DNA of 64,000 bases from Natronorubrum tibetense GA33. GTDB lineage: Archaea > Halobacteriota > Halobacteria > Halobacteriales > Natrialbaceae. How positions within the stretch are numbered: the first letter of the stretch is position 1; each line of letters opens with the position of its first letter. The notes beneath the pieces are model-generated. The model was not told the DNA's origin. It searched no databases and saw only the letters and a list, made by a program, of their open reading frames with translations. A program made the translations under genes and the position numbers. Of the stretch, positions 31,444-54,049 are shown one piece after another. The stretch is taken from assembly GCF_000383975.1 (NCBI RefSeq), contig NZ_KB913019.1:124001-188000 (forward strand). Direction: 5' to 3'.

Positions 31444-32571
31444 ATGACGGCTACCGCAATAGCGATCGAGTCAGTGACCAAATCGTTCCGCAGCGAGACG
31501 GTGCTCCGCGATATCGAACTGGAGGTCGAGGACGGCGAGTTCTGCGTCGTGCTCGGCCCGAGCGGTTGTGGGAAGAGTACGCTTCTCAAGTGCATCGCCG
31601 GATTGATCGAGTCCGACGACGGGACGATCACGCTCGATGGTCGTGACGCGGCCGAGCTGTCCGTCCAGGAACGGAACCTCGGCTACGTGTTCCAGGAGTT
31701 CGAAGAGACGTTGTTCCCCCACAAGAGCGTCGCGGAGAACATCGCGTTCGGTCTCGAGCAACGGGACGACCCGCCCACTCAGTCGGAGATCGACGAGACG
31801 ATCGACGAGATGTTGACCTTGTTAGCGATCGAGGAGACGCGGGACGATCTCCCGGGAGCGCTCTCGGGCGGGCAACAACAGCGCGTGGAGTTGGCACGAC
31901 AGCTGTGTCGCAACTGCGAGGTGATGCTCTTCGACGATCCCTTGGCCGACCTCGACTACAAGCTACAGAAACGCATGGAACTCGAGATGCGGAGCCTCCA
32001 TGCAGACCTCGGGAGTACGTTCCTCTACATCACACACAATCAGGATCAGGCACTCAAACTCGCCGACAAGCTGGTCGTGATGAACCGCGGCATGATCGAA
32101 CAGATCGGCACTCCGGAATCGGTGTATCACGATCCTCAGAACGCGTTCGTCTGCCGATTCGTCGGCGACTCGAACGCGCTCGTGACGAACGGGAAGCCGA
32201 CCGAGGTCGGCGACGGCGTCGTGGACGTCCAGACCGAGGCCGGTCCGATGCGGGCGACCGCACAGAACGGTGCCGAAAAGGAGACGGGGATGGTGATCGT
32301 CCGACCCGAAGCCGTATCGCTCGAGACGGACGACTGTGACGTGACAGTCACGGGCGTTCTCGAAGGTCGAACGTACACTGGCGAAACCACCGAGTTCGCG
32401 GTGTCGCTCGATGGAACCGACCGCGAGTTCTACGTCGTCGTTCCGGACAGCCCCGAGATCGGTGCGATCGGTGATTCGATCGAGCTCGGCTGGAACGTCG
32501 ACGACGCGCTCTACTTCGACGAACTCAGCGTAACCGACACCGTTACCATCACGGATCTCATTGAAGAATGA
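31444..32571 (+). CDS. ABC transporter ATPase, spermidine/putrescine-type, with atypical catalytic site
   Basis: 375 residues from ATG 31444 (MTATAIAIESVTKSF); 23 upstream codons lack family sequence. Walker A GPSGCGKST (38-46), Q-loop VFQEFEETLFPH, signature LSGGQ (140-144), Walker B MLFDDPLADLD (161-171) and switch His198 (ITHNQDQA). The residue after the Walker B Asp, normally the catalytic Glu, is Asp165. A C-terminal TOBE-like beta domain follows (PEAVSLETDDCDVTVTGVLEGRTYTG). It overlaps the next ATPase gene by four bases (ATGA), so the two are translated together and probably form one heterodimer energising the importer whose other parts lie at 36210-41339. Confidence 0.92.
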   Translation: MTATAIAIESVTKSFRSETVLRDIELEVEDGEFCVVLGPSGCGKSTLLKCIAGLIESDDGTITLDGRDAAELSVQERNLGYVFQEFEETLFPHKSVAENIAFGLEQRDDPPTQSEIDETIDEMLTLLAIEETRDDLPGALSGGQQQRVELARQLCRNCEVMLFDDPLADLDYKLQKRMELEMRSLHADLGSTFLYITHNQDQALKLADKLVVMNRGMIEQIGTPESVYHDPQNAFVCRFVGDSNALVTNGKPTEVGDGVVDVQTEAGPMRATAQNGAEKETGMVIVRPEAVSLETDDCDVTVTGVLEGRTYTGETTEFAVSLDGTDREFYVVVPDSPEIGAIGDSIELGWNVDDALYFDELSVTDTVTITDLIEE

Positions 32572-33773
32572 CAATGTCTGACATAGAATCCACCGAGGCG
32601 GACGTATCGCCGCCCGAACCAACGGCCGACGAATCGCAATCGGTCGCGCTCGAAGTCGACGAACTGACGAAGATCTACCCCGACGGAACCGTCGCCGTCG
32701 AAGATATCAGCTTCAGTATCAGGGAGGGAGATTTCTGCGTGCTGATCGGCCCCAGCGGCTGTGGGAAGTCGACGACGCTGCACTCGCTCGTCGGTAAAAT
32801 CCCGGTGACTAAGGGAGCAATACGGCTCGGGGGCGAAGACATCACCGACGAGCCGACCTACGAGCGCGACATCGGACTCGTCTTCCAGGACTTCCAGCTG
32901 TTTCCACACCTGACGGTCGAGGAGAACATCGGCTACGGACTGGAACGTCTGCAGGTCGACGCAGACGACCGCACGGCTCGTGTCGACGACATGATCGAGA
33001 TGATGCGCCTCGAGGAGCTGGTCGATCGCCACCCCGAGGAGCTCTCGGCCGGGCAGAAACAGCGCGTCGCACTCGCCCGGAGCATGGTCCTCAAGCCGAA
33101 ACTTCTCTTGCTGGACGAACCGCTGGGAGATATGGACTACAAGCTTCAGAAACACATGGAGCGAGAGTTGCTCCGGCTCCACCGCCAGCTCGACACGACG
33201 TTCGTCTACGTCACGCACGACCAGACGCAAGCGATGCGGCTGGCCGATCAGATCGTCGTCATGAACGACGGCAAAATCGAGCAATCCGACTCCGTCGAGC
33301 GCGTCTACAACGATCCGGCGACGGCGTTCGTCTCGGCGTTCGTCGGTGACTCGAACATCCTCACGGGCGAGCTGACCGAGGTCAGCAACAACGGCAGCTA
33401 CGCGCACATCGAAACGCCGCTCGGAACGTTCCTCGTAACCACGGAAAACCTTCGATCCGAACCGACATCCCTCGTGGGGGAACGGATCCCCTTCTCGGTC
33501 CGGCCGCAGTATCTCGAGGTCACCGACGACCTCGATAACAGCGTCAGTTGTCGGGTCGAAGACGTTATTCACCAGCCCGGATCGGGGACGCAGGTAATCC
33601 TCGAGGCGACCACGTCCGAGGGGACGGCCCACGAACTCCAGTTGAAGTCGTTCGACCGCATCGACCCGTCAGACACCGTCACTGTCGGCTGGAGCGCGGA
33701 TCACGCGACGCTGCTCGAGCAAACGAGTATCGTCGACGGGATCGATCTCGAGACCGATATTCTCGGCGAATGA
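32568..33773 (+). CDS. ABC transporter ATPase, spermidine/putrescine-type, second subunit
   Basis: 401 residues from the overlapping ATG at 32568, or 399 from 32574 (MSDIEST). Walker A GPSGCGKST (61-69), Q-loop VFQDFQLFPHL, signature LSAGQ (159-163; third residue Ala for the usual Gly), normal Walker B LLLLDEPLGDMD with Glu184, and switch His in VTHDQTQA. A TOBE-like C-terminal domain follows. Together with the upstream ATPase it gives one composite site with normal Glu and LSGGQ and one with Asp and LSAGQ. The two proteins are clearly homologous (DYKLQK after Walker B in both), so they probably arose by tandem duplication. Confidence 0.92.
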   Translation: MTMSDIESTEADVSPPEPTADESQSVALEVDELTKIYPDGTVAVEDISFSIREGDFCVLIGPSGCGKSTTLHSLVGKIPVTKGAIRLGGEDITDEPTYERDIGLVFQDFQLFPHLTVEENIGYGLERLQVDADDRTARVDDMIEMMRLEELVDRHPEELSAGQKQRVALARSMVLKPKLLLLDEPLGDMDYKLQKHMERELLRLHRQLDTTFVYVTHDQTQAMRLADQIVVMNDGKIEQSDSVERVYNDPATAFVSAFVGDSNILTGELTEVSNNGSYAHIETPLGTFLVTTENLRSEPTSLVGERIPFSVRPQYLEVTDDLDNSVSCRVEDVIHQPGSGTQVILEATTSEGTAHELQLKSFDRIDPSDTVTVGWSADHATLLEQTSIVDGIDLETDILGE

Positions 33774-33821: not shown

Positions 33822-34268
33822 TTACGATCGATCTTCGTCCGACCCCCGGATTCGTACGGTAACCGGCTGAACCCCGTCTCTGAGCGTCAGTTCTTCCAGT
33901 GCGGTGAGTTCCTCTCGCGTCGCCTCGAGCGTGCCGACGTGGTTTCCGGCGAGTTCGCCGGCCGGGCTCTTGAAACAGGTCGGGCCACAGGCGACCAGGA
34001 TTTCCTGTTCGTTCCTGTAGCCGGGGTACAGCAGAATATCGCCTCGAGACGGGTAGACGGTGTGGTTCTCTCGGGGGAGCTCCGGGAGGTCGATCTCGTC
34101 GATGTTGATCCACGTCGCGTGGCCGCTCCACCGGACGTGCATCAGCTCCGAGGTCAGCGGGAGGAATTCTTGCAGCGCACGAACCGACTCGGGGGCCTCC
34201 GACTCGAGCAGCGGTGCCACGTACGTGTTCTCGCCGACGGTGAGGTGGAGTTCGCTCACGACGTTCAC
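33822..34268 (-). CDS. DUF3830 family protein
   Basis: 148 residues from a GTG at 34268 that overlaps the stop of the upstream SDR gene (GTGA), indicating translational coupling; a second GTG three codons later could also serve. The sequence (MHVRWSGHATWINI, HTVYPSRGDILLYPG, NEQEILVACGPTCFKSPAGELAGNHVGTL) follows the DUF3830 family, which is predicted to have a cyclophilin-like beta-barrel fold. The biochemical role is unknown. These genes often lie beside amide hydrolases, racemases and transporters, and here the asparaginase and ABC importer are next to it. A function in amino compound use is the best guess. Confidence 0.82.
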   Translation of the reverse strand: MNVVSELHLTVGENTYVAPLLESEAPESVRALQEFLPLTSELMHVRWSGHATWINIDEIDLPELPRENHTVYPSRGDILLYPGYRNEQEILVACGPTCFKSPAGELAGNHVGTLEATREELTALEELTLRDGVQPVTVRIRGSDEDRS

Positions 34269-35038
34269 CTCGCCGTCCAGCCGCCGTCGACGCGCAGGAC
34301 GTGGCCGGTGACGAACTCGCTTTCTTCGCCCGCCAGAAACAGCGCGGCGTCCGCGACGTCATCGGGGGTCCCGAACCGGGGCCACGGCGTCGACGCCTGC
34401 CAGTCGGCGAGAAGTTCCTCGTCCGTCTCTCGCCACTCGACGTTTTGTGCGGTCTCGATGATGCCCGGCGCCAGCGCGTTGACGTTAATCTCGTCCGCCG
34501 CGTAGTCGAGGGCCATCTGACGCGTCAAATTGGAGACGCCCCCTTTCGACGCGCAGTAGGCCGCACTGTTTTCCCCGCCGACCAGCCCGTAGATCGACGA
34601 GAGGTTGATAATTTTCCCGTGATCGCTCTCTTTCAGGAGCGGGAGCGCGTGTTTGCTCGCGAGGAACACCCCCCGGAGGTTGACGTCCATGATGGCGTCG
34701 TACTCGTCGGCGGGCGTCTCGTGGGCCTGATTCTGGAAGTAGATCCCCGCGTTGTTCACGAGGATATCGAGTCCGCCGAACTCGGTCGCCGCCGTCTCGA
34801 GCGCCGCTTCGATGTCGTCCTCGTCGGTCACGTCCAGTTCGACGTACTCGTAGTCGGCGTCGACCGCGTCGAGACGGTCGAAGACGGACTCCTCGTCCTC
34901 GAGTTTCGGCTCGCGTCTGACGTCGGTGACGACGACGCTCGCGCCTTCGGCGCCGAACGTTGCTGCGATCGCGTTTCCGATGCCCGAACTCGCACCCGTA
35001 ACGATTGCGACACGGCCGTCTAGGCGTCCTTCTGTCAT
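34265..35038 (-). CDS. SDR family oxidoreductase, 3
   Basis: 257 residues. Cofactor loop TGASSGIG (15-22), NNAGIYFQ, catalytic NLSSIYGLVGG and YCASK (AAYCASKGGVSNLTRQMALDYA), ending GHVLRVDGGWTAR as in FabG-like dehydrogenases. An Asp at the end of beta-2 (VTDVRREP) suggests NAD preference. It is coupled to the DUF3830 gene by a four-base overlap and preceded by asparaginase (gap 33 bp), so the three minus-strand genes are probably one operon. The substrate is unknown. Confidence 0.9.
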   Translation of the reverse strand: MTEGRLDGRVAIVTGASSGIGNAIAATFGAEGASVVVTDVRREPKLEDEESVFDRLDAVDADYEYVELDVTDEDDIEAALETAATEFGGLDILVNNAGIYFQNQAHETPADEYDAIMDVNLRGVFLASKHALPLLKESDHGKIINLSSIYGLVGGENSAAYCASKGGVSNLTRQMALDYAADEINVNALAPGIIETAQNVEWRETDEELLADWQASTPWPRFGTPDDVADAALFLAGEESEFVTGHVLRVDGGWTAR

Positions 35039-35071
35039 ACGTCAACAGCATCCACGGCCGGGGAGAAATAG

Positions 35072-36055
35072 CTACCGCTCGGCTCGCTCGCCGGCGAACA
35101 GTCGCCGTCGCTCCTCTACGTCGTCGGCGACCGAACAGACGACGGCCAGTTTGATTCGCGCCTTGTGAGCCGGCAGGTCGTCGCCGTGGATCGCCCCGTG
35201 TGAACGCAGGGTGCTCCCGCCGCCGTCGCCGCCGTACACCGGGGCCGTCGTCCCAGCCTGACAGCGCGACGTGACGACGACGGGGGTGTCGTCGGCGACC
35301 GCATCGGCGATCGCATCGCCGAGGGCGCTCGTCGTGTTACCGAGTCCCGTTCCGTCGACGACGAGTCCGTCGACGCCGCCCTCGAGCGCTCGTTCGACCG
35401 GGCGACGCCCGACGCCGGCGCCGCTGGGAACGATCGCGATGTCGCTCGTCACCTCCCCCACGTCGAACGTCGCCGAGTAACTCCTCGGCTCGCGGACGAT
35501 TCGAATCTCCGACCGCGTCACGGTGGCGACCGGTGCCGTACTCGGCGAGTCGAAGGTCTCGAGTGCGCTAGTGTGGGTCTTCGTCACGTCGCGTGCGGCG
35601 TGAATTTCGTCGTTGGTGACTACGTAGACGCCGTCGTCGAACCGTTCGTGAGTAACGGCCCTGACCGCTGCCAGCAGATTCGCCGGTCCGTCCGGACTGA
35701 CCTCGTCGGGTCGTCGCTGTGCACCCGTGAACGCGACCGGAATCTCGCCGTCGAGGACGAGATCGAGAAAGTACGCTGACTCCTCGATCGTATCGGTTCC
35801 GTGGGTGACGACGACGCCGTCCGCGCCGTCGGCCGCGACGCGCCGGACGGCCGCCGTCAACTCAGCCATCGTCTCGAACCCCATATCGTAGCTCGGAATC
35901 TGGGCGACCTCCTCGACCTCGATCTCGGCGTGGCTCTCGGGTTCCGGGACGGCCTCGACCAGTTCCGCCCCGCGTTTGCTGGGCGTTGCACCGCCGGTCG
36001 CACTCGTGCTCGCGATGGTCCCGCCCGTGCTGAAGACGACGACAGTTGGTGGCAT
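35072..36055 (-). CDS. ansA: L-asparaginase type I/II family
   Basis: 327 residues. Both threonine active-site motifs are present: VVFSTGGTIASTSA (first Thr near residue 12) and VVTHGTDTIEESAYFLDL with the Thr-Asp pair, then PVAFTGAQRRPDEVSPDGPANLLAAVR. C-terminal GTGLGNTT and RCQAGTTAPVYGG fit the family. It hydrolyses asparagine, or related amides, to the acid and ammonia. It is cytosolic, with no signal peptide. It leads the minus-strand SDR/DUF3830 operon, and a polyamine-type receptor gene is divergent. Given the neighbours, the true substrate could be another beta-amide. Confidence 0.88.
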   Translation of the reverse strand: MPPTVVVFSTGGTIASTSATGGATPSKRGAELVEAVPEPESHAEIEVEEVAQIPSYDMGFETMAELTAAVRRVAADGADGVVVTHGTDTIEESAYFLDLVLDGEIPVAFTGAQRRPDEVSPDGPANLLAAVRAVTHERFDDGVYVVTNDEIHAARDVTKTHTSALETFDSPSTAPVATVTRSEIRIVREPRSYSATFDVGEVTSDIAIVPSGAGVGRRPVERALEGGVDGLVVDGTGLGNTTSALGDAIADAVADDTPVVVTSRCQAGTTAPVYGGDGGGSTLRSHGAIHGDDLPAHKARIKLAVVCSVADDVEERRRLFAGERAER

Positions 36056-36209: not shown

Positions 36210-37538
36210 ATGCCAGACGGTATCAGTAGACGAAACTTTGTTGCGTACGGTGGAGCAGCAGCGGGTGCCGCGCTCGCGGGATGTGTGGGTGGCGACGACG
36301 GACCGGCACGACCGCTCGAATGGATCGGCCCGGACTGGGCAGTCAGCGACGAACAGGCCGCGAAGATGGAGGAGATGTCCGACGTCGAAGTAAACACGAC
36401 GATCGCGACGATCGGTGACACGCAGGCAAACCTCCTCGGCGGCGGCTCCCAGAACACGGACGTGTTCACCTCGGACACGACCGGCTCCGGGGCGCTCACT
36501 CGAGACAACCCGGTGACGATTCCGATGCCGGTCGAGGACCTGGACAACTGGGACGAAGAGCAGATTTCCGACCTGTTCACGAACCCTCAAGAGCGGCTGA
36601 GCCACCTCGGCGAGCAGGTCGAGACGGTCAATCGTGAGCTGTGGGTCGACGGGGACAGCCGCGACGAGATCCTGTTCTCGCCGTACGCCTACAACTTCGA
36701 CGCGATGGGGTACAACCCGTCGTTCGTCGACGATGTCTCCCTGTGGAGTGCACAGTTCGACGAACAGTACGAGGGGGAGGTGATCGTCGGCGAGACGGCG
36801 GCGATCACCATTCCGCAGGCAATCATGCACCTGCTCGACAACGACATGATCGACGGGGAGATCGGCGAGTTGAACGACCCGACTGAAGACCAGCTCGATA
36901 CGGCGATCGACTTCCTTATCGAACAGAAAGAGGCCGGACAGTTCCGCTCGACCTGGGAAGCGTACGGAGAGTCCGTGACGCTTATGGCCGGCGAGGAAGC
37001 GGTCATCGGCGACATCTGGCAGCCGGCGGCGATGGACGTTCGCCGGGAGGGAACGCCGTGTACCTACGCGACGATGAGCGAGGGCATTCAGGGCTACCGG
37101 TACTGGTACGGCGGGATGGCGACGCTCGAGGGCGCACGGGAGCGCCAGAACGTCGATCAGGTCACATTCCTGTACGACAAGGTTCACCTCGGCGCGTGGT
37201 TCCCCGGCTTCGTGCAGGGTCGCGGCTACTCGGTTCCCCACTACGAGAACGAGGAACTCGTCCGCGACGGCTCGGACGACTCCGGCGAAGGGATGGGGCC
37301 GGAGTACTACGATTGGGCGTACCGCGGCGAGGCCACCTACGAGGAGATCGACGAACCGGCACTGTTCGATCCGCTCGACTACGATTGGTCGATGGAGGAG
37401 GGCGACCCCGACTCGGACGGCGGCACCCGCGACAGCGGACCGATCGAGGAACGGATCGACCGCATCGGGTTCTTCCAGATCTGGCCCAGTGAGGCGGACT
37501 ACATGGTCTCGCGTTGGGAAGACTTCCAGGCCGCCTGA
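36210..37538 (+). CDS. ABC transporter substrate-binding lipoprotein, spermidine/putrescine-type
   Basis: 442 residues. N-terminal twin-arginine SRRNFVAYGG, hydrophobic AAAGAALAG and lipobox LAGC, so Tat export and lipid anchoring at the cell surface. The mature domain resembles PotD/FutA-type receptors (YAYNFDAMGYNPSFVDDVSLWSAQFDEQYEGEVIVGE, IGDIWQPAAMDVRREGTPCTYATMSEGIQGY). It should deliver a polyamine, amino acid or iron-like ligand to the permeases encoded at 37587 and 40491, with ATPases from 31444-33773. The ligand is not predictable. At 442 residues it is longer than a typical PotD (about 350). Confidence 0.9.
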   Translation: MPDGISRRNFVAYGGAAAGAALAGCVGGDDGPARPLEWIGPDWAVSDEQAAKMEEMSDVEVNTTIATIGDTQANLLGGGSQNTDVFTSDTTGSGALTRDNPVTIPMPVEDLDNWDEEQISDLFTNPQERLSHLGEQVETVNRELWVDGDSRDEILFSPYAYNFDAMGYNPSFVDDVSLWSAQFDEQYEGEVIVGETAAITIPQAIMHLLDNDMIDGEIGELNDPTEDQLDTAIDFLIEQKEAGQFRSTWEAYGESVTLMAGEEAVIGDIWQPAAMDVRREGTPCTYATMSEGIQGYRYWYGGMATLEGARERQNVDQVTFLYDKVHLGAWFPGFVQGRGYSVPHYENEELVRDGSDDSGEGMGPEYYDWAYRGEATYEEIDEPALFDPLDYDWSMEEGDPDSDGGTRDSGPIEERIDRIGFFQIWPSEADYMVSRWEDFQAA

Positions 37539-37586: not shown

Positions 37587-38495
37587 ATGAGTTCAGAACC
37601 GAAAACCGGAGTTTTGAGTCGGCTACGAATCGATAAAGACGATCTGAACAACGAGGTAACCGGCCTGGTAGCACCGACGGTCATCTGGTTTACCGTCTTC
37701 TTGCTCCTGCCATTGCTGGTTATCTTCTACTACAGCTTCCTCACCTACTCGTCGTTCAACGTGATCCACGAGTTCACGCTCTCGGCCTGGATCGATGACG
37801 TGTTCGCCTCCGGAGCAGTCCGCGGCGCGTTCGTCCGAACGATCGGGGTCGGAGTCGTCGTCACCTTCATCACGCTCGTGTTCGGCTACCCGCTCGCGTA
37901 CTATCTTCGATTCCACACCACGCCCATGGTCGGGCTCGTCCTGCTGTTGTTCCTCGTCATCCCGTTCTGGACGTCGGAACTGATCCGGACGTTCGGCTGG
38001 TTCCCGATTCTCGGTCGAAACGGAGTCATCAACGGGCTGTTGATGAACCTCGGGATCATCGACGGGGCGATCGGCTGGCTCCTGTTCTCGTCGTTCTCGC
38101 AGGCGGTCGGCTACCTGCAGAACTACGTGGTGTTCATGGCCGCACCGATCTACATCTCGCTCTCGCAGATCGACGAGGGGCTGCTCAACGCGTCTGAAAC
38201 GCTTCGGGGCAATCCCATCGAAACGTTCCGGAACGTCACGTGGCCGCTGAGCCTGCCAGGGGTCGCGATCGGCTGTATGTTCACGTTCGTCCTCACGATC
38301 GGGAACTTCACCGTTCCGTCGTTCCTCAGCGGCGGTGCCAACACCGTTCCCACCCTGATCTACAGCCGCTACAGCCAGGGGCTGAACTACCCATCGGCCG
38401 CCGCGCTCTCGATCACGCTACTCGTCGTGATCTTCGCGTTCGTGTTCCTTCTGTTCCGCGTCGTCGACATCACCGAGATCGCGAGCCAGGAGTAA
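37587..38495 (+). CDS. ABC transporter permease, PotB-like
   Basis: 302 residues with six predicted membrane helices; the first follows a short cytoplasmic tail (VTGLVAPTVIWFTVFLLLPLLVIFYY). The EAA-type coupling loop is EGLLNASETLRGNPIETFRNVTWPLSLPGV near residue 195-225. It is the first membrane subunit of the polyamine-type importer, 48 bp after the receptor gene. The second permease gene is separated from it by a minus-strand chaperonin-like gene, which is unusual for this transporter class. Confidence 0.92.
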   Translation: MSSEPKTGVLSRLRIDKDDLNNEVTGLVAPTVIWFTVFLLLPLLVIFYYSFLTYSSFNVIHEFTLSAWIDDVFASGAVRGAFVRTIGVGVVVTFITLVFGYPLAYYLRFHTTPMVGLVLLLFLVIPFWTSELIRTFGWFPILGRNGVINGLLMNLGIIDGAIGWLLFSSFSQAVGYLQNYVVFMAAPIYISLSQIDEGLLNASETLRGNPIETFRNVTWPLSLPGVAIGCMFTFVLTIGNFTVPSFLSGGANTVPTLIYSRYSQGLNYPSAAALSITLLVVIFAFVFLLFRVVDITEIASQE

Positions 38496-38583: not shown

Positions 38584-40371
38584 TCACTCGTGCCAGATCG
38601 TATCGTCTTGCTCGTCGAGATACGCCTGGTGGTTCTCCGCGTGTTCGTCATAGATCGCCTCACCCGGTTGCGTCGGCTCCTCGCTGAAGGTCGCATCGAG
38701 CGCGTCGTCGACGCGGAGCACGAGCGACGCGACATCGACCGCGTGCTGATAACACCGGAGCCGGACCGCCGTCGGATCGAGCAGGCCGGCCTCGAGCACG
38801 TCGTCGATCTCACCGGCCGGGAAGACGAGCCCCGGCGCGGTGCCGTTCGTCGCGTTCGTCGTCGCCTCTCGAAGCGAGGTGAGCGTCGTCAGGGTATCCA
38901 TCCCCGCGTTCCGGGCGAGCGTCGACACGAATCGGTCCGTTGCGTCGGCGAACGCTTGGACGGCGAGCTGTTCCCGTCCGTCCGCCTCGAGGGCGGCGTC
39001 GCGGAGCGAGTCCGCGAGTTCGAGCTCCGTCGCCCCGCCGCCGGGGAGAACCCCCGCCGGACCGGTCGTCTCACCCATCGCCGTCGCGACCGCGGCGACG
39101 GCCTTCCGTATCTCCGTCGCGGCCTGCGCGCCGAGCTGGCCGTGAACGCCGCGGAGGAGGAAGGTGACCGACGCTGGGTCGGAACACTCATCGAACACAA
39201 CCATCCGTCGGCGCTTTCGCCGACCCTGTCGCTTGTCGATCGTCTGCTGTTCGACCAGCCCCGCGTGGCCGAGATCCGCCGGCGTCACGTCGGTCGGGTC
39301 GACGACCGGCGTCGCGCCGGTTGCACTCGCCAGCTGCGCGAGTTTGAGGCGGTTGACGCCGCGGATCCCGACGATCCCGTGTTCGACGAGGAGCTCCTGA
39401 TACGCGTCGTTGATGCCGGTTCTGGTCACGACGACGTCGACGCCGGCCTCGACGAGACCCGCGACGACTTCCTCGCGGCGGGTCGCGAATACGTCGTCGA
39501 ACGCGTCGATCTCGTCGGGCGATTCGATGACGAGTCGCTCGCCGTCCTGCTGGAAGTCCGGGTCCTGCAAGCCGCCGGTCTTGCCGTCGTTGGCCTTCCC
39601 GCGCTTGAACCCGCTGATGACGAGGACGTTCGCGTCCGTCACCCGGTGTGGCATCCGCTCGTCACAGATATCGTTTCGATCGAGCACCGTACCGAAGACG
39701 AGTCGCGAGTCGTCGATCGAGCCCGAGCGAATCTGCCGGATGGCGAGCGTCTCCTCGTCCGGCATCCCGATCTGTCTTGCGGCCTCGACGGCACCGCTCG
39801 CCCACGTCTCCCGTGCGTTTCCGACGTCGTTGCCCGTCATCGCCGATCGCGCGACCATCTCCGCGGCGGCCGTCGGATCGTCGAACGACTCGAGCGGCCG
39901 CGAGAGCGTCTCCATCGTTTGTTCGACACAGTCGAGTGCGGCGCTGTAGCCGTCCTCGATGGTCGTCGGATGGACACCCATCTCGAGCAGGCGTTCCCCC
40001 TCGTCCAGCAGCGCGCCGAGCAGTACTACGGTGGTCGCGATTCCGTCGGGGACCAGTTCACCCTCGACGTCCGTCGTTCCCGGGCGTTCCGGGGCGACGA
40101 GCCGTCGGATAATCGGGCCCATCGGGTGTTCGACCGGAAGCTCCTCGAGGATCGTTGCCCCGTCGCTGCTGACCGTATCGACCCGCGTTTCGGGCTCCCC
40201 GGGTTCCCGTTCGGTCTTCCCCGCGCGGCTCTCGATCAGCGTGTCGTGGGAGAGCGGCCCCAGCGAGCTCTCGAGGACGCCGCGGATCGCTCGAGCGGCG
40301 ACGATATTTGCGTGTGGAAACTGTAATTCCGCCTCCGAATCGGTTGTCTCTCCCATCTTCGATACTGTCAT
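38584..40371 (-). CDS. Divergent thermosome (TCP-1/cpn60 group II chaperonin)-like protein
   Basis: 595 residues from ATG 40371 (MTVSKMGETT); an upstream extension of 43 codons has no family character. The chaperonin plan is recognisable: ANIVAARAIRGVLESSLGPLSHD, VSSDGATILEELPVEHP (normally NDGATIL), VPDGIATTVVLLGALLDEG (normally GDGTTTAVVLAG), MPHRVTDANVLVISG, VLPGGGATELELADSLRDAA and ending YQHAVDVASLVLRVDDAL. The phosphate-binding GDGTT loop reads PDGIATT, so ATPase activity may be weak or changed. True thermosome subunits are about 550 residues with intact motifs. It lies on the opposite strand between the two permease genes of the ABC importer. Role unknown. Confidence 0.85.
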   Translation of the reverse strand: MTVSKMGETTDSEAELQFPHANIVAARAIRGVLESSLGPLSHDTLIESRAGKTEREPGEPETRVDTVSSDGATILEELPVEHPMGPIIRRLVAPERPGTTDVEGELVPDGIATTVVLLGALLDEGERLLEMGVHPTTIEDGYSAALDCVEQTMETLSRPLESFDDPTAAAEMVARSAMTGNDVGNARETWASGAVEAARQIGMPDEETLAIRQIRSGSIDDSRLVFGTVLDRNDICDERMPHRVTDANVLVISGFKRGKANDGKTGGLQDPDFQQDGERLVIESPDEIDAFDDVFATRREEVVAGLVEAGVDVVVTRTGINDAYQELLVEHGIVGIRGVNRLKLAQLASATGATPVVDPTDVTPADLGHAGLVEQQTIDKRQGRRKRRRMVVFDECSDPASVTFLLRGVHGQLGAQAATEIRKAVAAVATAMGETTGPAGVLPGGGATELELADSLRDAALEADGREQLAVQAFADATDRFVSTLARNAGMDTLTTLTSLREATTNATNGTAPGLVFPAGEIDDVLEAGLLDPTAVRLRCYQHAVDVASLVLRVDDALDATFSEEPTQPGEAIYDEHAENHQAYLDEQDDTIWHE

Positions 40372-40490: not shown

Positions 40491-41339
40491 ATGGCGACAA
40501 AGCACACTTCGGTCGACAAGCAGATGGATCGATCTGCGCTCACGCGTGTCGTGCAGTGGGTCGATATGAAACGCCTGTTGGCAGCGTACTTTATCCTGAT
40601 TTCACTGTATATCTACGCGCCGATGCTCGCGCTGATCGTCTTTTCGTTCAACTCGGGCGGAATCTCGCCGCCGTATCAGGGGTTCACGCTGGCGTGGTAC
40701 AGCGAGCTAGCGGCGAATCAAGGGATCATCAACTCGGTGATGCGGTCGATTCAGCTCGCACTCGTTGTGACGGTGATCACGACGGTACTGGGGACCGCTG
40801 CGGCGCTCGCGTATCGCTTTGATTTCCGCGGCCGGAAGCTGTTCCTCTACCTGATCGTGCTCGGGATCATCACCCCCGGGATCGCGTTCAGCGTCGGTTC
40901 GACGCTGTTGCTCAACGAGGTACTCGGTCTGTCGCGGTCGATGTGGGTCGCCCTGCCGGCACACGTCGTCTGGACGCTCCCGTTTGCGGTGATCGTGCTG
41001 CTCGCCGGCTTCCCGCCGAATCTGGCCCAGAACGAGGAGGCCGCGCGAGTGATGGGGGCGAGTCGAGTGACCACGTTCCGCGAGATCGTGTTGCCACAGA
41101 TCGCCCCGACCGTTCTCGGTGCGGCCGTCTTCGCGTTCACGCTCTCGTACAACGAGGCCGAACGCGGGCTGCTCCTCGTCGGTCGTGACCGAACGATGCC
41201 CATGGAGGTATTCAGTATCGCGTCCGCCGAGCGGGCGACTCCGGAGTTGTTCGCCCTCGGGAGCGTGACCACCATCTTCTCGACGATCCTCCTCCTCGTC
41301 GCGGGGGGTCTCGTCGTCTACGGCGCCAGGCAGTCCTGA
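40491..41339 (+). CDS. ABC transporter permease, PotC-like
   Basis: 282 residues, six predicted membrane helices (first RLLAAYFILISLYIYAPMLALIVFSF). The segment SFNSGGISPPYQGFTLAWYSEL after the first helix is typical of PotC-type permeases, and the coupling loop is NEEAARVMGASRVTTFREIVLPQIAPTV. It is the second membrane subunit of the importer whose receptor and PotB-like subunit lie just upstream. A NodB-fold hydrolase follows 103 bp later on the same strand. Confidence 0.92.
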   Translation: MATKHTSVDKQMDRSALTRVVQWVDMKRLLAAYFILISLYIYAPMLALIVFSFNSGGISPPYQGFTLAWYSELAANQGIINSVMRSIQLALVVTVITTVLGTAAALAYRFDFRGRKLFLYLIVLGIITPGIAFSVGSTLLLNEVLGLSRSMWVALPAHVVWTLPFAVIVLLAGFPPNLAQNEEAARVMGASRVTTFREIVLPQIAPTVLGAAVFAFTLSYNEAERGLLLVGRDRTMPMEVFSIASAERATPELFALGSVTTIFSTILLLVAGGLVVYGARQS

Positions 41340-41442: not shown

Positions 41443-42279
41443 ATGACGTCCAAAGTTTGCCTTACGTACGACTTCGACGCAGTATCGACGTGGCTCTGGT
41501 CATACGACTCCTGGGACATGCCGACCAGACACTCCCGCGGCGTGTACGGTGCGAACGTCGGCGCCCCGCGCTTGCTCGACCTCCACGACAAACACGACAT
41601 CCCGGCGACGTGGTTCGTTCCCGGCCACACGATCGACAGCTTCCCGGAGATCAGCGCCGAGGTCTGGGACCGCGGCTACGACATTCAACATCACGGTTGG
41701 AGTCACACCGGACCCGCAACTTATGAGACGAAAGAGGACGAGAAGGCCGACGTCGACCGAGCGATCGACTCGATCGTCGACCTCACTGGGCGCAAGCCGA
41801 CCGGCTATCGCTCTCCCGCCTGGGATTACTCCGAGAACACCCTCGACATCTTAGACGAGGTCGGCATCGAGTGGGACTCGAGCAAGATGGCCTCCGACTT
41901 CGAACCCCACTGGCTCTACGGCGGCTGGAGCGCCCCCGAGGACGGTGCGTACGACCGCGGAGAGCCGACCGATATCGTCGAACTCCCCGTCTCCTGGCAG
42001 CGCGACGACTGGCCCGCGCTGACGTTCACCTGGGCACGGCCACACCGCATGGGCTACGTGAGCGAGGACTCGCTGTTCCAGCGCTACTACGACCAGTTCG
42101 ACTGGATGCACGAGAACGTCGACGACGGCGTGTTCATTCTGACCCTCCACCCGCAAGTCATCGGCCAGGCCCACCGCATCTCGCGACTCGAGGAACTGAT
42201 CGAGCACATGAACAGCAAGGATGACGTCGAGTTCGAAGAGATGGACGCCGTCGCGACCGAGTTCCGCGAGAACAACTGA
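41443..42279 (+). CDS. NodB-fold (polysaccharide deacetylase family) hydrolase, possibly cyclic-imide hydrolase
   Basis: 278 residues, no signal peptide, so cytosolic. NodB motifs: catalytic Asp in LTYDFDA (near 8-14), metal ligands in HHGWSHT (near 85-91), the YRSPAWDYS loop (Arg/Pro) and the distal LTLHPQVIGQAHR. The cytosolic subgroup of this family includes PgdA-like proteins and bacterial cyclic-imide hydrolases, rather than true cell-wall deacetylases. Archaea lack peptidoglycan, and hydantoinases, amidase and racemase are nearby, so ring-opening of a cyclic imide or ureide is a reasonable guess. A TATA-like tttttagata at 41412-41421 precedes it. Confidence 0.85.
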   Translation: MTSKVCLTYDFDAVSTWLWSYDSWDMPTRHSRGVYGANVGAPRLLDLHDKHDIPATWFVPGHTIDSFPEISAEVWDRGYDIQHHGWSHTGPATYETKEDEKADVDRAIDSIVDLTGRKPTGYRSPAWDYSENTLDILDEVGIEWDSSKMASDFEPHWLYGGWSAPEDGAYDRGEPTDIVELPVSWQRDDWPALTFTWARPHRMGYVSEDSLFQRYYDQFDWMHENVDDGVFILTLHPQVIGQAHRISRLEELIEHMNSKDDVEFEEMDAVATEFRENN

Positions 42280-42359
42280 TACGGATTACTGTACCGATTT
42301 ACCGGCGCAACCGCCGCCCGGATCGCGGTTGCACCGGAAATGACTTACAGTGAACCGTA
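42280..42359. repeat. Long imperfect inverted repeat, 34-nt arms
   Basis: Two 34-nt arms (42280-42313 and 42326-42359) around a 12-nt loop pair at about 25 of 34 positions. The ends are perfect: tacgg/ccgta outside, actgta/tacagt, and ccgg with gcaaccg/cggttgc inside. It begins at the base after the hydrolase stop codon, between convergent genes. It may serve as a bidirectional terminator or be a dispersed palindromic element; I recall similar sequences in other haloarchaeal intergenic regions but cannot confirm it. Confidence 0.65.
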
Positions 42360-42406
42360 TGAGACGGCGGTTCCGTACCGGGTTTTCGAACCGCCTGCCG
42401 ATCCCT

Positions 42407-43060
42407 CTACTCCAGCAACTCCCGTTTCATCGTCTCGAACTCGCGTTCCGTGAGATGGCCCTGCTCGAATAAGGCCTCGAGTCGCTCGAGCGAATCGAAG
42501 GAGTCGTCGTCCGATTCGGTCTCTATCTGTTGGCGAATCGTCGAGCAGGCTGCGGTTGTGTCGTCGGTGGAGGTTCGCCCGACGTCGATATAGTACCGTT
42601 TCGGTCCACGGAGCACGAGTCGTTGGTTACCGTTCGCCGTCTCCAGCTTCGCCCCCCTCAGTTCGTCGTAGGATATCGATCGGTACTCGTGATCGGCGGG
42701 TGCCTCGCGCTGAATCACGACCAACAGCCGTCGGTCCGTGACGAGCGTCAGCAGGTCGCGACCGCGACTCGCCATCTTGCGGGTTCGGCTCTCCTCGCGA
42801 CGGTCGCGGTCGTCATCGTTCGTCTCGTAATCCATGATCCGCCCGCGGAGCGCGTACTGAACCCGTTCGTCGCTGTCCAGTCGCTCACGGAGTCGCCGAC
42901 GTTCCGGCCCTTTGATCTCGAGCCCGTCCATCTCCTCGGCAGCCGACTCGGATCCTTTGTCAGTAGCCGACTCGGAACCACCGTCGGCAGCCGGCCTAGA
43001 GCCCTCGTTGTCGGTCGCTGAAGCATCGCCCCGTCGGCCCGTTTGCTCGTCGAATGGCAT
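42407..43060 (-). CDS. PH-like and SHOCT domain protein
   Basis: 217 residues. A low-complexity acidic head (residues 1-45) is followed by a bacterial-PH/YokE-like beta domain (VQYALRGRIMDYE, LLTLVTDRRLLVVIQ, YRSISYDELRGAKLE, RLVLRGPKRYYIDVG) and a C-terminal SHOCT motif (LERLEALFEQGHLTEREFETMKRELLE, about 190-217). Such proteins are common in haloarchaea; SHOCT is thought to mediate oligomerisation, and the function is unknown. It is cytosolic and convergent with the NodB-fold gene. Confidence 0.8.
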   Translation of the reverse strand: MPFDEQTGRRGDASATDNEGSRPAADGGSESATDKGSESAAEEMDGLEIKGPERRRLRERLDSDERVQYALRGRIMDYETNDDDRDRREESRTRKMASRGRDLLTLVTDRRLLVVIQREAPADHEYRSISYDELRGAKLETANGNQRLVLRGPKRYYIDVGRTSTDDTTAACSTIRQQIETESDDDSFDSLERLEALFEQGHLTEREFETMKRELLE

Positions 43061-43080
43061 ACGAATCGATGATCGCGAAC

Positions 43081-43092
43081 ACGTATATACGT
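43081..43092 (-). promoter_or_regulatory. Palindromic TATA-like element for the PH/SHOCT gene
   Basis: acgtatatacgt is a perfect 12-bp palindrome 20-32 nt before the ATG at 43060 and should hold the TATA box. Its symmetry also leaves the other direction possible, but the nearest plus-strand gene starts at 43277. Confidence 0.55.
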
Positions 43093-43276
43093 TCTCGAGC
43101 GACCACCCGACACTGGGGTAGTCGCCGCCGCCGGGACGCCACGTTGCAGTTCGTAGCGATAACAGCTATGGCGATTCGCCGAGAACGAGTATTACTCTCA
43201 GAACTCGGCGTCCGGCCGCCGGCAATACCGTCGGAACGGTCAGGATCGCCGTCGTACACCGCCTCGAGAGGACCCT

Positions 43277-43843
43277 ATGACAACAGACGACCAAACGGAC
43301 GGAGAGACACGCATCGTCGAGGGATGGCACGGCCGATACTACGAGGAGTTCGAGGTCGGCGATATCTACAAGCATCCCTTCGGACGCACCGTCACCGAGA
43401 CGGACAACGTTTGGCTGACGAACGTCACGATGAATCTCAACCCGATGCACTTCAATGAAGCGTACGCCGCCGAGACGGAGTTCGGCGAACGGCTCGTCGA
43501 CGGCACGTTCGTCATCGCGCTGGTCGTCGGGATGAGCGTGATCGACGTCTCCGTGAACGCGACTGCAAACCTCGGCTACGACGATATCCGCCACCACGCT
43601 CCCGTCTATCACGGCGATACGCTCTTCGCCGAGAGCGAAGTGATCGACAAACGCGAGAGCGGTTCCCGAGATCACGTCGGGATCGTGACGACCGAACTGC
43701 GCGGCTACAATCAGGACGGCGACCTCGTGATCTCCCTCGAGCGCACGCCGATGGTGCTCAAACGCGAGCACGCCCAGCCCAGCCCGGCGAAGCCACCCGG
43801 CTGGCCGGAGGGGATCGGAACGCAGCCGGAGAACGACTCATGA
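43277..43843 (+). CDS. MaoC family dehydratase (enoyl/mesaconyl-CoA hydratase-like)
   Basis: 188 residues with one hot-dog domain. WHGRYYEEFEVGDIYKHPFGRTVTETDN opens the domain as in mesaconyl-CoA hydratase-like MaoC proteins, and MNLNPMHFNEAYAAET carries the Asn/His hydratase dyad position. LGYDDIRHHAPVYHGDTLFAESEVIDKRES follows. It hydrates or dehydrates a short unsaturated or 3-hydroxy acyl-CoA. It overlaps the CoA-transferase gene by four bases (ATGA), so the two are made together. A CoA-transferase that activates an unsaturated dicarboxylate, followed by its hydratase, is the simplest reading. Confidence 0.88.
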   Translation: MTTDDQTDGETRIVEGWHGRYYEEFEVGDIYKHPFGRTVTETDNVWLTNVTMNLNPMHFNEAYAAETEFGERLVDGTFVIALVVGMSVIDVSVNATANLGYDDIRHHAPVYHGDTLFAESEVIDKRESGSRDHVGIVTTELRGYNQDGDLVISLERTPMVLKREHAQPSPAKPPGWPEGIGTQPENDS

Positions 43844-45282
43844 GCGGCGGACTCGAGAAGACGGATGCGCCGGTCGACGCCGCGTCGGCCGCCACCTACG
43901 TCGATCCCGAGGCGGTCGTCGCCGTGAGCGGGTTCGGCGCGGTCGGCTACCCGAAGGCTCTCCCGCTGGCCCTCGCGGCCGACGACCGCGACCTCGCGCT
44001 GACGGTCATCAGCGGGGGCAGCGTCGGTAAGGAGATCGATACGGCGCTCGTCGAAGCGGACGCGATCGCCCGTCGCTATCCCTACCAGGCGAGAGCTGCG
44101 GCGCGAGAGGCGGTCAACGACGAAACGATCGCGTTTCAGGACCGATTTATTTCCAAACTGGGCGACGAGGTCGAACTCGGGCACGTTCCGACGCCCGACG
44201 TCGCGATCGTCGAGGCGGTAGCCGTCGGCGACGGCTGGTTTGTCCCCTCGCTCTCGATCGGTCACACCGTTGCGTACGTTAGGGCCGCGGAGAAGTTGAT
44301 CATCGAGGTGAACGACTCGATCCCTCGCGATATCGGTCGGTTTCACGATGTCTACGAGCGGTCGCTGCCCCCGGATCGGGGGCCGATTCCGCTCGAGGAG
44401 CCGGCGGACCGAATCGGTGGGTCGCGGATCGAGTTCGATCCGGCGGCTCTCCTCGCCGTCGTCGAGACCGAGGCGGCCGACGATCCGTACGACTTCCGCG
44501 AGCCGTCGGCGACCGACCGGGAGATCGCCGCGAACCTCGCGACGTTCCTCGAGGCCGAACTCGACCGTTGCTCGATGTTCGACGACCGGATCGCCCTTCA
44601 GTTCGGCGTCGGAAGCCTTGGCAACGCGCTCATGGGCGCGCTGTCGTCGATCGACTTCGGCGACCGGGACGTCTACTACTTCGGCGAGGTGTTCCAGGAC
44701 GGTCTGCTCGAGATGATCGAGAACGGGACGCTCGCGGGTGCCAGCGCGACGGCGTTCGCCCTCTCCGCGGCGGGCCAGCAGCGGCTGTTCGACGACATCG
44801 ACGGTTACAGCGAGTCAATCGTCCTCCGCCCGGCGGACCTCTCGAACAGCCCGGCGTTGATCGACCGCTTCGGCGTCGTCGGGATCAACAGTGCCATCGA
44901 GGTCGATCTCTACGGCCACGCGAACTCGACGCACGTCGACGGCTCGCGCGTGCTGAACGGGGTCGGCGGCAGCGGCGACTTCAACCGCAATGGCGTGCTC
45001 TCGATCACTACGCTTCCCTCGAGACACGGCGCGGAGACATCGTGTATCGTGCCGATGTGTCCCCACGTCGATCACTCGGAACATGATATCTCGGTCGTGA
45101 TCACCGAACGGGGCGTCGCCGACCTCCGCGGGCGCTCCCCTCGCGAGCGCAGCCGACTGCTCATCGAACACTGTGCCCATCCGGAGGTCGTCGACGACCT
45201 CGAGGCGTACGTCGCTCGCGGCGAGACAGCGGGCGGCCACATCCCCCACCACCTCGAGTCGGCGTTCTCCTGGCGGTCCTGA
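43840..45282 (+). CDS. Acetyl-CoA hydrolase/transferase family CoA-transferase
   Basis: 480 residues, of the Cat1/acetyl-CoA hydrolase family. Motifs: VVAVSGFGAVGYPKALPLAL, IALQFGVGSLGNALMGAL (about 251-268), VYYFGEVFQDGLLEMIENG with Glu283 at the position of the catalytic CoA-binding glutamate, VGINSAIEVDLYGHANSTHV and VITERGVADLRGRSPRERSRLLIEHCAHP. It transfers CoA from succinyl- or acetyl-CoA to another acid. Itaconate CoA-transferase of bacteria belongs here. The overlapping MaoC gene should act on its product. Propionate, 4-hydroxybutyrate and mesaconate are other possible acceptors. Confidence 0.9.
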   Translation: MSGGLEKTDAPVDAASAATYVDPEAVVAVSGFGAVGYPKALPLALAADDRDLALTVISGGSVGKEIDTALVEADAIARRYPYQARAAAREAVNDETIAFQDRFISKLGDEVELGHVPTPDVAIVEAVAVGDGWFVPSLSIGHTVAYVRAAEKLIIEVNDSIPRDIGRFHDVYERSLPPDRGPIPLEEPADRIGGSRIEFDPAALLAVVETEAADDPYDFREPSATDREIAANLATFLEAELDRCSMFDDRIALQFGVGSLGNALMGALSSIDFGDRDVYYFGEVFQDGLLEMIENGTLAGASATAFALSAAGQQRLFDDIDGYSESIVLRPADLSNSPALIDRFGVVGINSAIEVDLYGHANSTHVDGSRVLNGVGGSGDFNRNGVLSITTLPSRHGAETSCIVPMCPHVDHSEHDISVVITERGVADLRGRSPRERSRLLIEHCAHPEVVDDLEAYVARGETAGGHIPHHLESAFSWRS

Positions 45283-45395
45283 CGCCGGGCTGCCGATACT
45301 GACGGCACAGCGCCGATACGGTGCCGGTGCGGCGCGGTTCGATCGCAGAAACAGCTTTGGCCGTCCCCGCCGACTTCCTCTCGTGGCGCGAGACT

Positions 45396-46127
45396 ATGAA
45401 AATCAAAGCCATCAATCCGAACACCACCCTCGAGATGACCGAGAACATCGGCGCAGTCGCGAACGAGTACACGGCTGACGATACCGAGGTCGTCGCCGTC
45501 TCCCCCGACCGTGGGCCGATCAGTATCGAATCCTACTACGACGACTACCTCGCCGTCCCCGGCATCCTCGACGAAATCCTCAAAGACGAGGATGACGAGT
45601 TCGATGCGTTCGTCAACTCGTGCTGGGGCGATCCGGGTCTCGACGCCTGCCGCGAAGTCACCGACAAGCCAGTCGTCGGCATCGCCGAAGGCTCGATGTA
45701 CGTCGCGAACATGCTGGGGGCGAACTTCTCGGTCGTCACGATCCTCCCTCGAGCGCGCGACTTCATCGAGGAAGCGGTCAGAAAGACGGGGTTGGACGGC
45801 CACTGTGCGTCAGTCCGCTGTACCGACCTGACCGTCGTCGAAACCGAAAACACGCGTGACGCGGCGGCAAAGGCGCTCCTCGAGGCGAGCTGGGAGGCTG
45901 TCGAGGAGGACGACGCCGAAGTGATCTGTCTCGGCTGTGCCGGGATGGGGGGTCTCGACGAACCCCTCGAGGCCGAACTTCCCGTCCCCGTTATCGACAG
46001 CGTTGGTGCGGGTGCCGTGCTCGCCGAAAGTCTCGTCCAACTCGGTAAACGCACGAGCACAGTCAGGACCTACAAACGGCCGGAGTCGAAGGAAATCGTC
46101 GGCTACCCCGAGCGCTACCAGCTGTAG
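45396..46127 (+). CDS. Asp/Glu/hydantoin racemase family protein
   Basis: 243 residues from ATG 45396 (MKIKAINPNTTLEMTENI), as the family begins; upstream codons are non-coding. Two active-site cysteines are in place: Cys76 in VNSCWGDPGLDA and Cys181 in CLGCAGMGGLDE, with GIAEGSMYVA between. The NPNTT start and the GDPGL form are those of hydantoin racemases rather than aspartate racemases. It would racemise 5-substituted hydantoins (or Asp/Glu) so that both enantiomers can be used. The hydantoinase A/B genes in the next 12 kb fit this. It is separated from the CoA-transferase by 113 bp. Confidence 0.9.
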   Translation: MKIKAINPNTTLEMTENIGAVANEYTADDTEVVAVSPDRGPISIESYYDDYLAVPGILDEILKDEDDEFDAFVNSCWGDPGLDACREVTDKPVVGIAEGSMYVANMLGANFSVVTILPRARDFIEEAVRKTGLDGHCASVRCTDLTVVETENTRDAAAKALLEASWEAVEEDDAEVICLGCAGMGGLDEPLEAELPVPVIDSVGAGAVLAESLVQLGKRTSTVRTYKRPESKEIVGYPERYQL

Positions 46128-46338
46128 GCACGGTCTCGAGCGACCGAACCTCTCTCGTTCTCGATTCGACGCAGCGTGTCGAGCGCCCGCCCTCGAGAAC
46201 ATTCGAGCGTCCAACGTGTGGAACGAAGGCCGACACAATTGACCAATCGTTCGTCATCGCCGAACGTTATATGTGATCAGGCAGCACTCATTGGATGTAT
46301 CGTGGCTCGAGAACGTTTCCGACCTACTGCCTGGTAAT

Positions 46339-46358
46339 TTACAAAAGTACTGCTGTAA
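46339..46358. promoter_or_regulatory. 20-bp palindrome TTACA-N10-TGTAA, copy 3
   Basis: ttaca and tgtaa arms around a centre containing agtact. Same design and length as copies 1 and 2 near the IclR gene, 24 kb away. It lies 212 bp after the racemase stop. Confidence 0.65.
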
Positions 46359-46424
46359 AAACTTGGATCACGATCGTCGTCGAAGCGGTTCGTTTGCATG
46401 TGCGGTATCGCTGTAATCTACTCA

Positions 46425-46444
46425 TTACACGAGTACTACTGTAA
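46425..46444. promoter_or_regulatory. 20-bp palindrome TTACA-N10-TGTAA, copy 4
   Basis: ttacacgagtactactgtaa, 86 bp after copy 3. Like the IclR-linked pair, the two sites here come as a close doublet (86 bp apart against 70 bp). Confidence 0.65.
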
Positions 46445-46984
46445 ATATCTGCGGAGAACTACCCTTCAGCGGGGAGACACGACTGACGGCGCGATCGGGC
46501 GTTTCGGTGATCTACAGCGCCACAGTACTGCAGTTTTCAACCTAGTCGGTGGTGGAACGGCCGTTCGATAACGCCGTCTTTTATATACTACTATTCGGAA
46601 AGCTGATAGGCTTTCGAGAATTGTTCCTATCGTAACTATATCCATTATATCGATCTATGTTCGCCTGTTTATCTACTTATGCGCGTTTGATATTCTGATA
46701 CAACAACCAATCGCGAAAATCCTATCGTAGTTTGACTATTCGGACAGTGATTATTGGAGAGTAACATCCCTGGTAGGTAAACACACCCACGATTTCGAAG
46801 CCAGGAATCGACTGCCCGAATGGGTTCGTGGCAAACACCTCACAGAAAAACACTGTCGTTCGGTGACAGCGAACCTTTTATACTCCGGCAACGATTATCG
46901 CTGTCGATTCGTCTCTGAAAAGCCGACGGCGTCGATCGCAGCACGAAGATCGAAAAGGGATTGATCGCTCGAGCGATTCGTCGG

Positions 46985-48190
46985 TCAGTACGACCGCGGC
47001 AGTCCGAGCACGTTCTCTCCTACGTAGTTGAGTACGAGTTCCTGGGTAATCGGCACGAGTCGAGTGAGTCGCGCTTCCCTGAGGTACCGTTCGACATCGT
47101 ACTCCCGTGCGACGCCGAACCCGCCGTGGGCCTGGACGGCGGCGTCCGCGGCCGCGAAAGCGGCTTCGGCGGCCAGATACTTCGCCATGTTCGCCTGCGC
47201 GCCGACGGCCCGTCCCGACTCCTCGTCGACCGCGCTCGCGGCGCTGTAGGTCAGTTGCTTTGCGGCCTGTAGCTCCGCATAAGCTTTGGCTAACGGGTGC
47301 TGGATGGCCTGGTTCATCCCGATCGGGCGATCGAACACCACGCGCTCGTTCGCGTAGTCGACGCCCGTCTGAATCGCCAGTTCGCCGAGCCCGAGACACT
47401 CGGCTGCAATCACCAGTCGCTCCTCGTTGAGTCCGTCCAGCAGCTGATAGAAGCCGTTCCCGCGCTCGCCGACGAGATTGTCGGCGGGGGCGCGCAGGTC
47501 GTCGAACCAGAGTTCGTAGGCGTGGACGGCGTTGCTGGCGGTCTTCGGAATCGACCGCATCGTCAGCGTTCCGGCGTCGACGGCGTCGTCGATATCGACG
47601 AGGAACATCGAAATCCCCTTCGTTCGCTTTTCGGCCGCCGATTTCGGCGTCGTCCGGGCCACGACCAGCAGGTAGTCGCTCGCGTCGACCCGTGAGATCC
47701 AGATCTTCTGTCCGTTGATCACGTACTCCCCTTCCTGCTCTTCAGCGACCGTTTCGATGGAGGTCGAATCCGAACCCGCGTTCGGTTCGGTGAGTCCGAG
47801 CGACTGGATCGCGACGTCACCCTCCGCGACGGCCGGAAGCAGCCGTTCTTTGAGTTCCTCGCTCCCGTGACGGACGATCGGCACGGAGTTGTAGATCCCG
47901 CCGTGGATCGCCTGCGCCGCGGCGAACCCGCCGCCGCTGGCCGCGATCTCTTCCATCATTACGACGACCTCCGCCGTTCCCATTCCCGCGCCGCCGTACG
48001 CCTCGGGGACGAGGATCCCTAGCCACCCGTGGTCGGCCAGTTCCGTCACGAACTCCGTCGGGTATTCGGCCGCGCGGTCTTTCTCCCGCCAGTACTCCTC
48101 GTCGAACTCGCTACAAATATCGCGGATGCTCTCCCTGACGAGTTCTTGCTGCGCAGTCAGCGCTACGGTATCCGTCGCTACTGTGGCCAT
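46985..48190 (-). CDS. Acyl-CoA dehydrogenase, 3 (atypical catalytic base)
   Basis: 401 residues from ATG 48190 (MATVATDTVALTAQQELV); 23 upstream codons look non-coding. Motifs: GLTEPNAGSDSTSIE, NGQKIWISR, NERVVFDRPIGMNQAIQHPLAKAYAEL, AVQAHGGFGVAREYDVERYLREARL. The usual YEGT/FEGT with the catalytic Glu is replaced by RLVPITQE. A Glu is present in LNEERLVIAAECLG, the helix that supplies the base in isovaleryl-CoA and long-chain dehydrogenases. It is divergent from a hydantoinase gene, with a 169-bp spacer that holds an inverted repeat. Confidence 0.9.
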   Translation of the reverse strand: MATVATDTVALTAQQELVRESIRDICSEFDEEYWREKDRAAEYPTEFVTELADHGWLGILVPEAYGGAGMGTAEVVVMMEEIAASGGGFAAAQAIHGGIYNSVPIVRHGSEELKERLLPAVAEGDVAIQSLGLTEPNAGSDSTSIETVAEEQEGEYVINGQKIWISRVDASDYLLVVARTTPKSAAEKRTKGISMFLVDIDDAVDAGTLTMRSIPKTASNAVHAYELWFDDLRAPADNLVGERGNGFYQLLDGLNEERLVIAAECLGLGELAIQTGVDYANERVVFDRPIGMNQAIQHPLAKAYAELQAAKQLTYSAASAVDEESGRAVGAQANMAKYLAAEAAFAAADAAVQAHGGFGVAREYDVERYLREARLTRLVPITQELVLNYVGENVLGLPRSY

Positions 48191-48279
48191 CACTATTCCT
48201 TGTGTGGTCGGCGAGATAAACCTACGCCTGCCCGGCGTTTGCTGGTCGACAGATCGCAAATTGAAACCGGCGAGAGTGA

Positions 48280-48299
48280 CTTATCATCGAATCGATAAG
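48280..48299. promoter_or_regulatory. Inverted repeat cttatc-N8-gataag in divergent promoter
   Basis: Six-base arms cttatc and gataag around eight bases, 61 bp before the hyuA ATG and 90 bp before the divergent acyl-CoA dehydrogenase ATG. The place and symmetry fit an operator shared by both genes. Confidence 0.45.
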
Positions 48300-48359
48300 A
48301 CCTGACTCGGCCACCGAGGGAAACGGTTAACTCCTCCAGCAGAGAGCTATTGGTTGTGC

Positions 48360-50453: not shown

Positions 50454-50459
50454 GTGTTA

Positions 50460-52295: not shown

Positions 52296-52364
52296 TCGGG
52301 TCTGTTCTTCGGTTTTCACTCGCGAACGTCAGCACGGCGAACGTCAGAACGGTGCGTCGATCGA

Positions 52365-53795: not shown

Positions 53796-53917
53796 CGTCG
53801 ATCATCCTCGGCTCGACTCGGGTCAACGGTTGGACGCCATTGGTCGCCGCGCAGACGGTCGTTCGTGCTTCGAATCTGTCGGCCGTGCTGTCCGTGACAC
53901 TGGAAACCCAGGCTCAT
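53792..53917 (-). CDS. Possible 41-residue upstream reading frame coupled to the amidase gene
   Basis: An ATG at 53917 opens 41 codons (MSLGFQCHGQHGRQIRSTN and on) that end with ATGA overlapping the amidase start. Overlap of this kind is common between true neighbours, but the composition is basic and lacks the acid-rich signature of halophilic proteins, so it may be chance. I give it only as a possible leader or small gene. Nothing recognisable lies in the rest of the 254-bp spacer except the hyuA2 promoter. Confidence 0.2.
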   Translation of the reverse strand: MSLGFQCHGQHGRQIRSTNDRLRGDQWRPTVDPSRAEDDRR

Positions 53918-54016: not shown

Positions 54017-54049
54017 CCACTTGCGTGTCCTACTACGTGGGATGATATC

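Follow-up and report, generated by a model that had tools for sequence, protein, structure and literature searches.

A tandem pair of haloarchaeal PotA/MalK-type importer ATPases with one predicted degenerate ATP site, and its co-inherited divergent chaperonin

The window, a 64,000-nucleotide stretch of the Natronorubrum tibetense GA33 contig NZ_KB913019.1, contains two adjacent genes for ABC transporter ATPases, NBD1 and NBD2, whose reading frames overlap by ATGA (Table 1). Each ATPase is composed of an ABC_tran domain and a C-terminal TOBE_2 domain, the arrangement of importer ATPases of the PotA/MalK (TOBE) type. The top matches of both are PotA, PhnT2, and UgpC-type importer ATPases, with scores short of the equivalog cut-off for each of the best matches listed. 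NBD1 and NBD2 score 296 and 289 bits against PotA (NF006987; cut-off 482) and are thus not PotA equivalogs; their scores of 265 and 283.5 bits against TIGR01187 are also short of the cut-off of 355.6. The counterpart of NBD1 in Natronorubrum texcoconense is 96% identical. Linked to the ATPase pair are genes for a substrate-binding protein and for one PotB-type and one PotC-type permease, as expected of an importer of this type. Orthologous loci contain one PotB, one PotC, and one substrate-binding protein each, save where the examined stretch ends earlier.

Table 1 Features of the importer locus and of the compared glycerol importer. Positions are those of the window unless a locus handle (L) is given.
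Feature	Position	Strand	Remark
NBD1, PotA/MalK-type ATPase, 375 aa	31444..32571	+	ABC_tran + TOBE_2
NBD1 signature LSGGQ, aa 140-144	31861..31875	+	predicted partner of NBD2 in the consensus site
NBD1 Walker B/D-loop FDDPLADLD, aa 163-171, Asp165 at the catalytic Glu position	31930..31956	+	
NBD2, PotA/MalK-type ATPase, 401 aa	32568..33773	+	ABC_tran + TOBE_2
NBD2 signature LSAGQ, aa 159-163, Ala161	33042..33056	+	predicted half of the degenerate site
NBD2 Walker B/D-loop LDEPLGDMD, aa 182-190, normal Glu184	33111..33137	+	
Substrate-binding protein, N-terminus like a Tat lipoprotein signal (RRNF...LAGC)	36210..37538	+	weak SBP_bac_8 match, below cut-off
PotB-type permease	37587..38495	+	family match
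Divergent group II chaperonin (TCP-1/cpn60), Lys423 at the catalytic Asp	38584..40371	-	between the two permease genes
PotC-type permease	40491..41339	+	syntenic permease in other loci
GlpS/GlpT tandem ATPases, proteobacterial glycerol importer	L075 3495-5654; L230-L239		

The Walker A motif, the Q-loop, and the H-loop histidine are intact in both ATPases. The original prediction paired Asp165 with LSGGQ in NBD1 and Glu184 with LSAGQ in NBD2, and its coordinates and residue numbers are exact. It also reasoned that a head-to-tail dimer would have one normal and one degenerate composite site. This logic holds, as Asp165 and LSAGQ fall together: judged from the sequences, both defects are predicted to meet in one composite site, which then has the residues of a degenerate site. 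The H-loop motif is THNQ (residues 197–200) in NBD1 and THDQ in NBD2. The Asn following the H-loop His is conserved within the NBD1 clade and yet occurs in 6/116 single NBDs as well, and we therefore rejected THNQ as a mark of degeneration.

NBD1 is present in 20 of 391 Halobacteria genomes, and NBD2 occurs in the identical 20 and is absent from the rest of the sample; the two genes adjoin each other in every one of these genomes. Together with the loci of N. bangense, a Salinirussus MAG, and three plasmids (Halarchaeum, Haloarcula litorea, and Haladaptatus halobius), the comparison covers 25 orthologous loci. The co-occurrence check suggested with the original prediction gave a clear outcome: NBD1 with Asp and LSGGQ lies beside NBD2 with Glu in 25/25 loci, and the NBD2 signature is LSAGQ in 24 of them and LSSGQ in one. 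Asp165 is invariant across the 25 loci, which include nine genera in the genome sample, at identities down to 54%. The background set was formed by 116 related NBDs drawn from 24 haloarchaeal genomes, all of which retain the catalytic Glu and both signature glycines; Asp at the catalytic position, an altered signature glycine, and a tandem NBD neighbor were each looked for and found in 0/116. The occurrence of the paired changes in 25/25 loci, as opposed to 0/116 background NBDs, argues that they are neither a product of chance nor a general haloarchaeal trait. Between NBD1 and NBD2, 24 alignment columns are fixed differently (two sets of 21), including D165/E184, G142/A161, and N199/D218. Single-NBD paralogs from the same genome were considered as alternative partners and rejected, as all have Glu and LSGGQ and none stands in tandem. 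In one genome (G323, L067 8837-9957), the NBD1 frame is broken and NBD2 is intact, which reflects either a pseudogene or an assembly error. A wider contig scan recovered few of the known loci, and the absence of the pair beyond Halobacteria is therefore not proven.

A tree of 60 NBDs built under a mixture model recovers NBD1 and NBD2 as two monophyletic sister clades (support 100/99), which together nest among single NBDs of haloarchaea. A 113-row tree gives the identical sister placement. The sister relationship fits a single tandem duplication followed by complementary loss.

We propose that a single PotA-type NBD gene was duplicated in tandem within haloarchaea, after which NBD1 would have lost the catalytic Glu (replaced by Asp165) and NBD2 the first signature glycine (replaced by Ala161). 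The two proteins would since function only as a heterodimer beneath one PotB/PotC channel. The consensus site, built from the Walker A, Walker B, and H-loop of NBD2 and the LSGGQ of NBD1, would hydrolyse ATP and power the import. The degenerate site, built from the Walker A, Walker B, and H-loop of NBD1 and the LSAGQ of NBD2, would bind ATP and hydrolyse it slowly or not at all, and may, as in exporters resembling TAP, keep the dimer associated from one turnover to the next. We assign a probability of roughly 75% to this reading, in which tandem duplication and complementary decay produced an obligate heterodimer with one consensus and one degenerate site and with hydrolysis mainly at the former. 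Both the physical association of NBD1 with NBD2 and the predominance of hydrolysis at one site of the pair are inferred from sequence patterns. The most common changes in human degenerate sites are a signature change in one NBD and a Glu-to-Asp change in the other, and sites with Asp do hydrolyse ATP, at a rate far below that of the transport cycle (PMC7756269). Hydrolysis is therefore expected mainly at the consensus site, and since Asp sites are described as slow hydrolysers, this wording is safer than the restriction to one site only that was originally suggested. Three features speak against the proposed asymmetry: the change to Asp is a conservative swap that may permit slow hydrolysis, the exchange of Gly for Ala in the signature is mild, and NBD1 retains the H-loop His, which is often lost as well in degenerate NBDs of the TAP1 type.

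The heterodimer could be real and both of its sites could hydrolyse ATP at similar rates, Asp and LSAGQ being tolerated variants that tune the rate in high salt. The described ability of Asp sites to hydrolyse ATP (PMC7756269) and the unbroken Walker A and H-loop of both ATPases agree with this possibility; we nevertheless regard it as unlikely, because neither change appears in any of the 116 haloarchaeal NBDs facing equal salt pressure and because the two changes share one composite site in 25/25 loci. It is still less probable that NBD1 and NBD2 form separate homodimers serving the same or different permeases, for example under different conditions. PotA-type NBDs do normally homodimerise (PMC11414716); however, each homodimer would here contain two defective sites, with either two Asp or two LSAGQ, the loci provide a single PotB and a single PotC, and the two ATPases strictly co-occur. 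A further reading, in which the asymmetric NBD gene is in decay with its substitutions as neutral relics, could draw support from the NBD1 frame break in 1/20 genomes, possibly an assembly error; it is scarcely credible given the invariance of Asp165 in 25/25 loci from nine genera down to 54% identity and the full length of NBD1 and NBD2 outside G323.

The importer bears a resemblance to the spermidine/putrescine importer PotABCD: PotA ranks first among the family matches of NBD1 and near the top for NBD2, one permease is PotB-like, and the gene set likewise consists of NBD, two permeases, and a substrate-binding protein. It differs in having two diverged NBDs, whereas a single gene encodes PotA, two copies of which pair symmetrically in the solved structure of the spermidine importer (PMC11414716), in keeping with the earlier statement that polyamine-type importers normally have two equal ATPases. 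The substrate of the haloarchaeal importer, moreover, is probably not a polyamine.

The asymmetry was originally likened to that of exporters. The parallel to TAP1/TAP2 and TM287/288 is close, as these also combine a signature change and a Glu-to-Asp change in different NBDs to give one altered composite site (PMC7756269), although they are exporters with fused TMD-NBD chains, and TAP1 has an H-loop change besides. The pattern is, however, not confined to exporters. For RbsA and NupO, fused ATPases of Bacillus subtilis importers, one degenerate site was reported (PMC11466899), so degenerate sites in importers as such are not new. RbsA and NupO share with NBD1/NBD2 the single degenerate ATP site of an importer ATPase but belong to another importer class, have two NBDs in one polypeptide, and lack the Walker A Lys in the second.

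A further importer case is the proteobacterial glycerol transporter GlpS/GlpT, whose identity was confirmed in Rhizobium phaseoli by the nearby glpD and glpK genes. GlpS keeps LSGGQ and has the H-loop His replaced by Thr or Ser (ATTEP) in 11/11 pairs, down to 48–58% identity. GlpT keeps the Glu and the His and has the signature LTADQ, LTADA, LAADA, or LSPDN, likewise in all 11 pairs, and in each pair all the changes land in one composite site. Similarly to NBD1/NBD2, GlpS and GlpT are tandem MalK-type NBD genes following the logic of one degenerate site; they differ in the residues lost, in their permeases, and in an additional DUF2160 protein. A tree grouping GlpS/GlpT with NBD1/NBD2 is rejected with an AU p of 0.015, to be read with caution given the long branches, and the asymmetry of GlpS/GlpT therefore looks independent. 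A surface search of the open-access literature found no report of it. As an independent case, GlpS/GlpT suggests that NBD genes have more than once been duplicated and then decayed in complementary fashion.

The reason why so many transporters retain an impaired ATP site has been sought almost only in exporters. In the present PotA/MalK-type importer, the NBD pair is soluble and separately encoded, which makes each half-site mutable or swappable alone, and single-NBD relatives within the same organisms offer a symmetric control.

The surroundings of the importer, at 33822-36055 and 41443-58047, are dense in genes of amide and ureide catabolism, encoding an asparaginase, a DUF3830 protein, two hydantoinase A/B pairs, an Asp/Glu racemase, an amidase, and a deacetylase. 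Recurring near the importer loci are genes of hydantoinase/oxoprolinase, Asp/Glu racemase, asparaginase, amidase, Zn-dependent hydrolase, and creatininase. These recurring amide and cyclic-ureide enzymes point to a substrate resembling cyclic ureides or amides, and suggest that the importer takes up a nitrogenous catabolic compound rather than a polyamine. The counterpart of the binding protein in N. bangense is annotated as a substrate-binding protein, and a profile search of the PDB with the binding protein found no relative. Structure models were built without plasmid-derived rows; that of the binding protein was too poor (pLDDT 45.6) to guide substrate assignment by fold and was set aside.

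The chaperonin start was taken as 40371, and the longest open reading frame extends to 40500. The predicted structure has the group II fold (pLDDT 76.8), and Foldseek matches it to Mm-Cpn (E 4.6e-37) and thermosomes. The protein resembles thermosomes in its fold, full length, and GGGA and DGAT motifs, but lies far under the thermosome equivalog cut-offs. An independent search (E 1e-75) finds the chaperonin gene in exactly the 20 of 391 haloarchaeal genomes that bear NBD1/NBD2, and the gene shares the same eight plasmid records with NBD1. In all orthologous loci, no more than about 12 kb separates it from the ATPase pair, even though gene order and strand are shuffled. The column of the catalytic Asp, D386 of Mm-Cpn, is occupied by Lys in 20/22 chaperonin orthologs and by Gln in 2/22, and no acidic residue is found there in either of two possible registers. 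The Mm-Cpn variant D386A binds ATP and cannot hydrolyse it (PMC5019054). The missing catalytic Asp and this precedent indicate that the chaperonin on its own probably lacks ATPase activity, although it might still join thermosome rings.

The chaperonin probably serves the importer, for example in importer assembly or in folding of the Tat-exported binding protein. Candidate clients are the NBD pair and this protein, which with its Tat signal has to reach its fold within the cytoplasm. The co-inheritance of chaperonin and importer could also stem from transfer of the genes as one block; however, the two ATPases, the substrate-binding protein, the two permeases, and the chaperonin are retained in all loci, whereas genes for asparaginase, SDR, DUF3830, and deacetylase are missing from some. 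We speculate, with the odds somewhat against it, that a catalytically dead group II chaperonin has become a factor devoted to the assembly or folding of a single ABC importer, which would make it the archaeal equivalent of the chaperonin-like BBS proteins, and that it partners an importer whose ATPase pair is reduced to one active site. No title or abstract returned by searches of the open-access literature reports an ABC-linked chaperonin in archaea. If real, a chaperonin tied to one transporter and devoid of the catalytic residue would represent a group II chaperonin function for which we found no report, and it may matter more than the asymmetry of the ATP sites. A second divergent chaperonin paralog (L081, G000:C2:30322-31752) was rejected as an importer partner, as no ABC genes were seen among the surrounding open reading frames. 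This paralog contains Ala in the column of the catalytic Asp.
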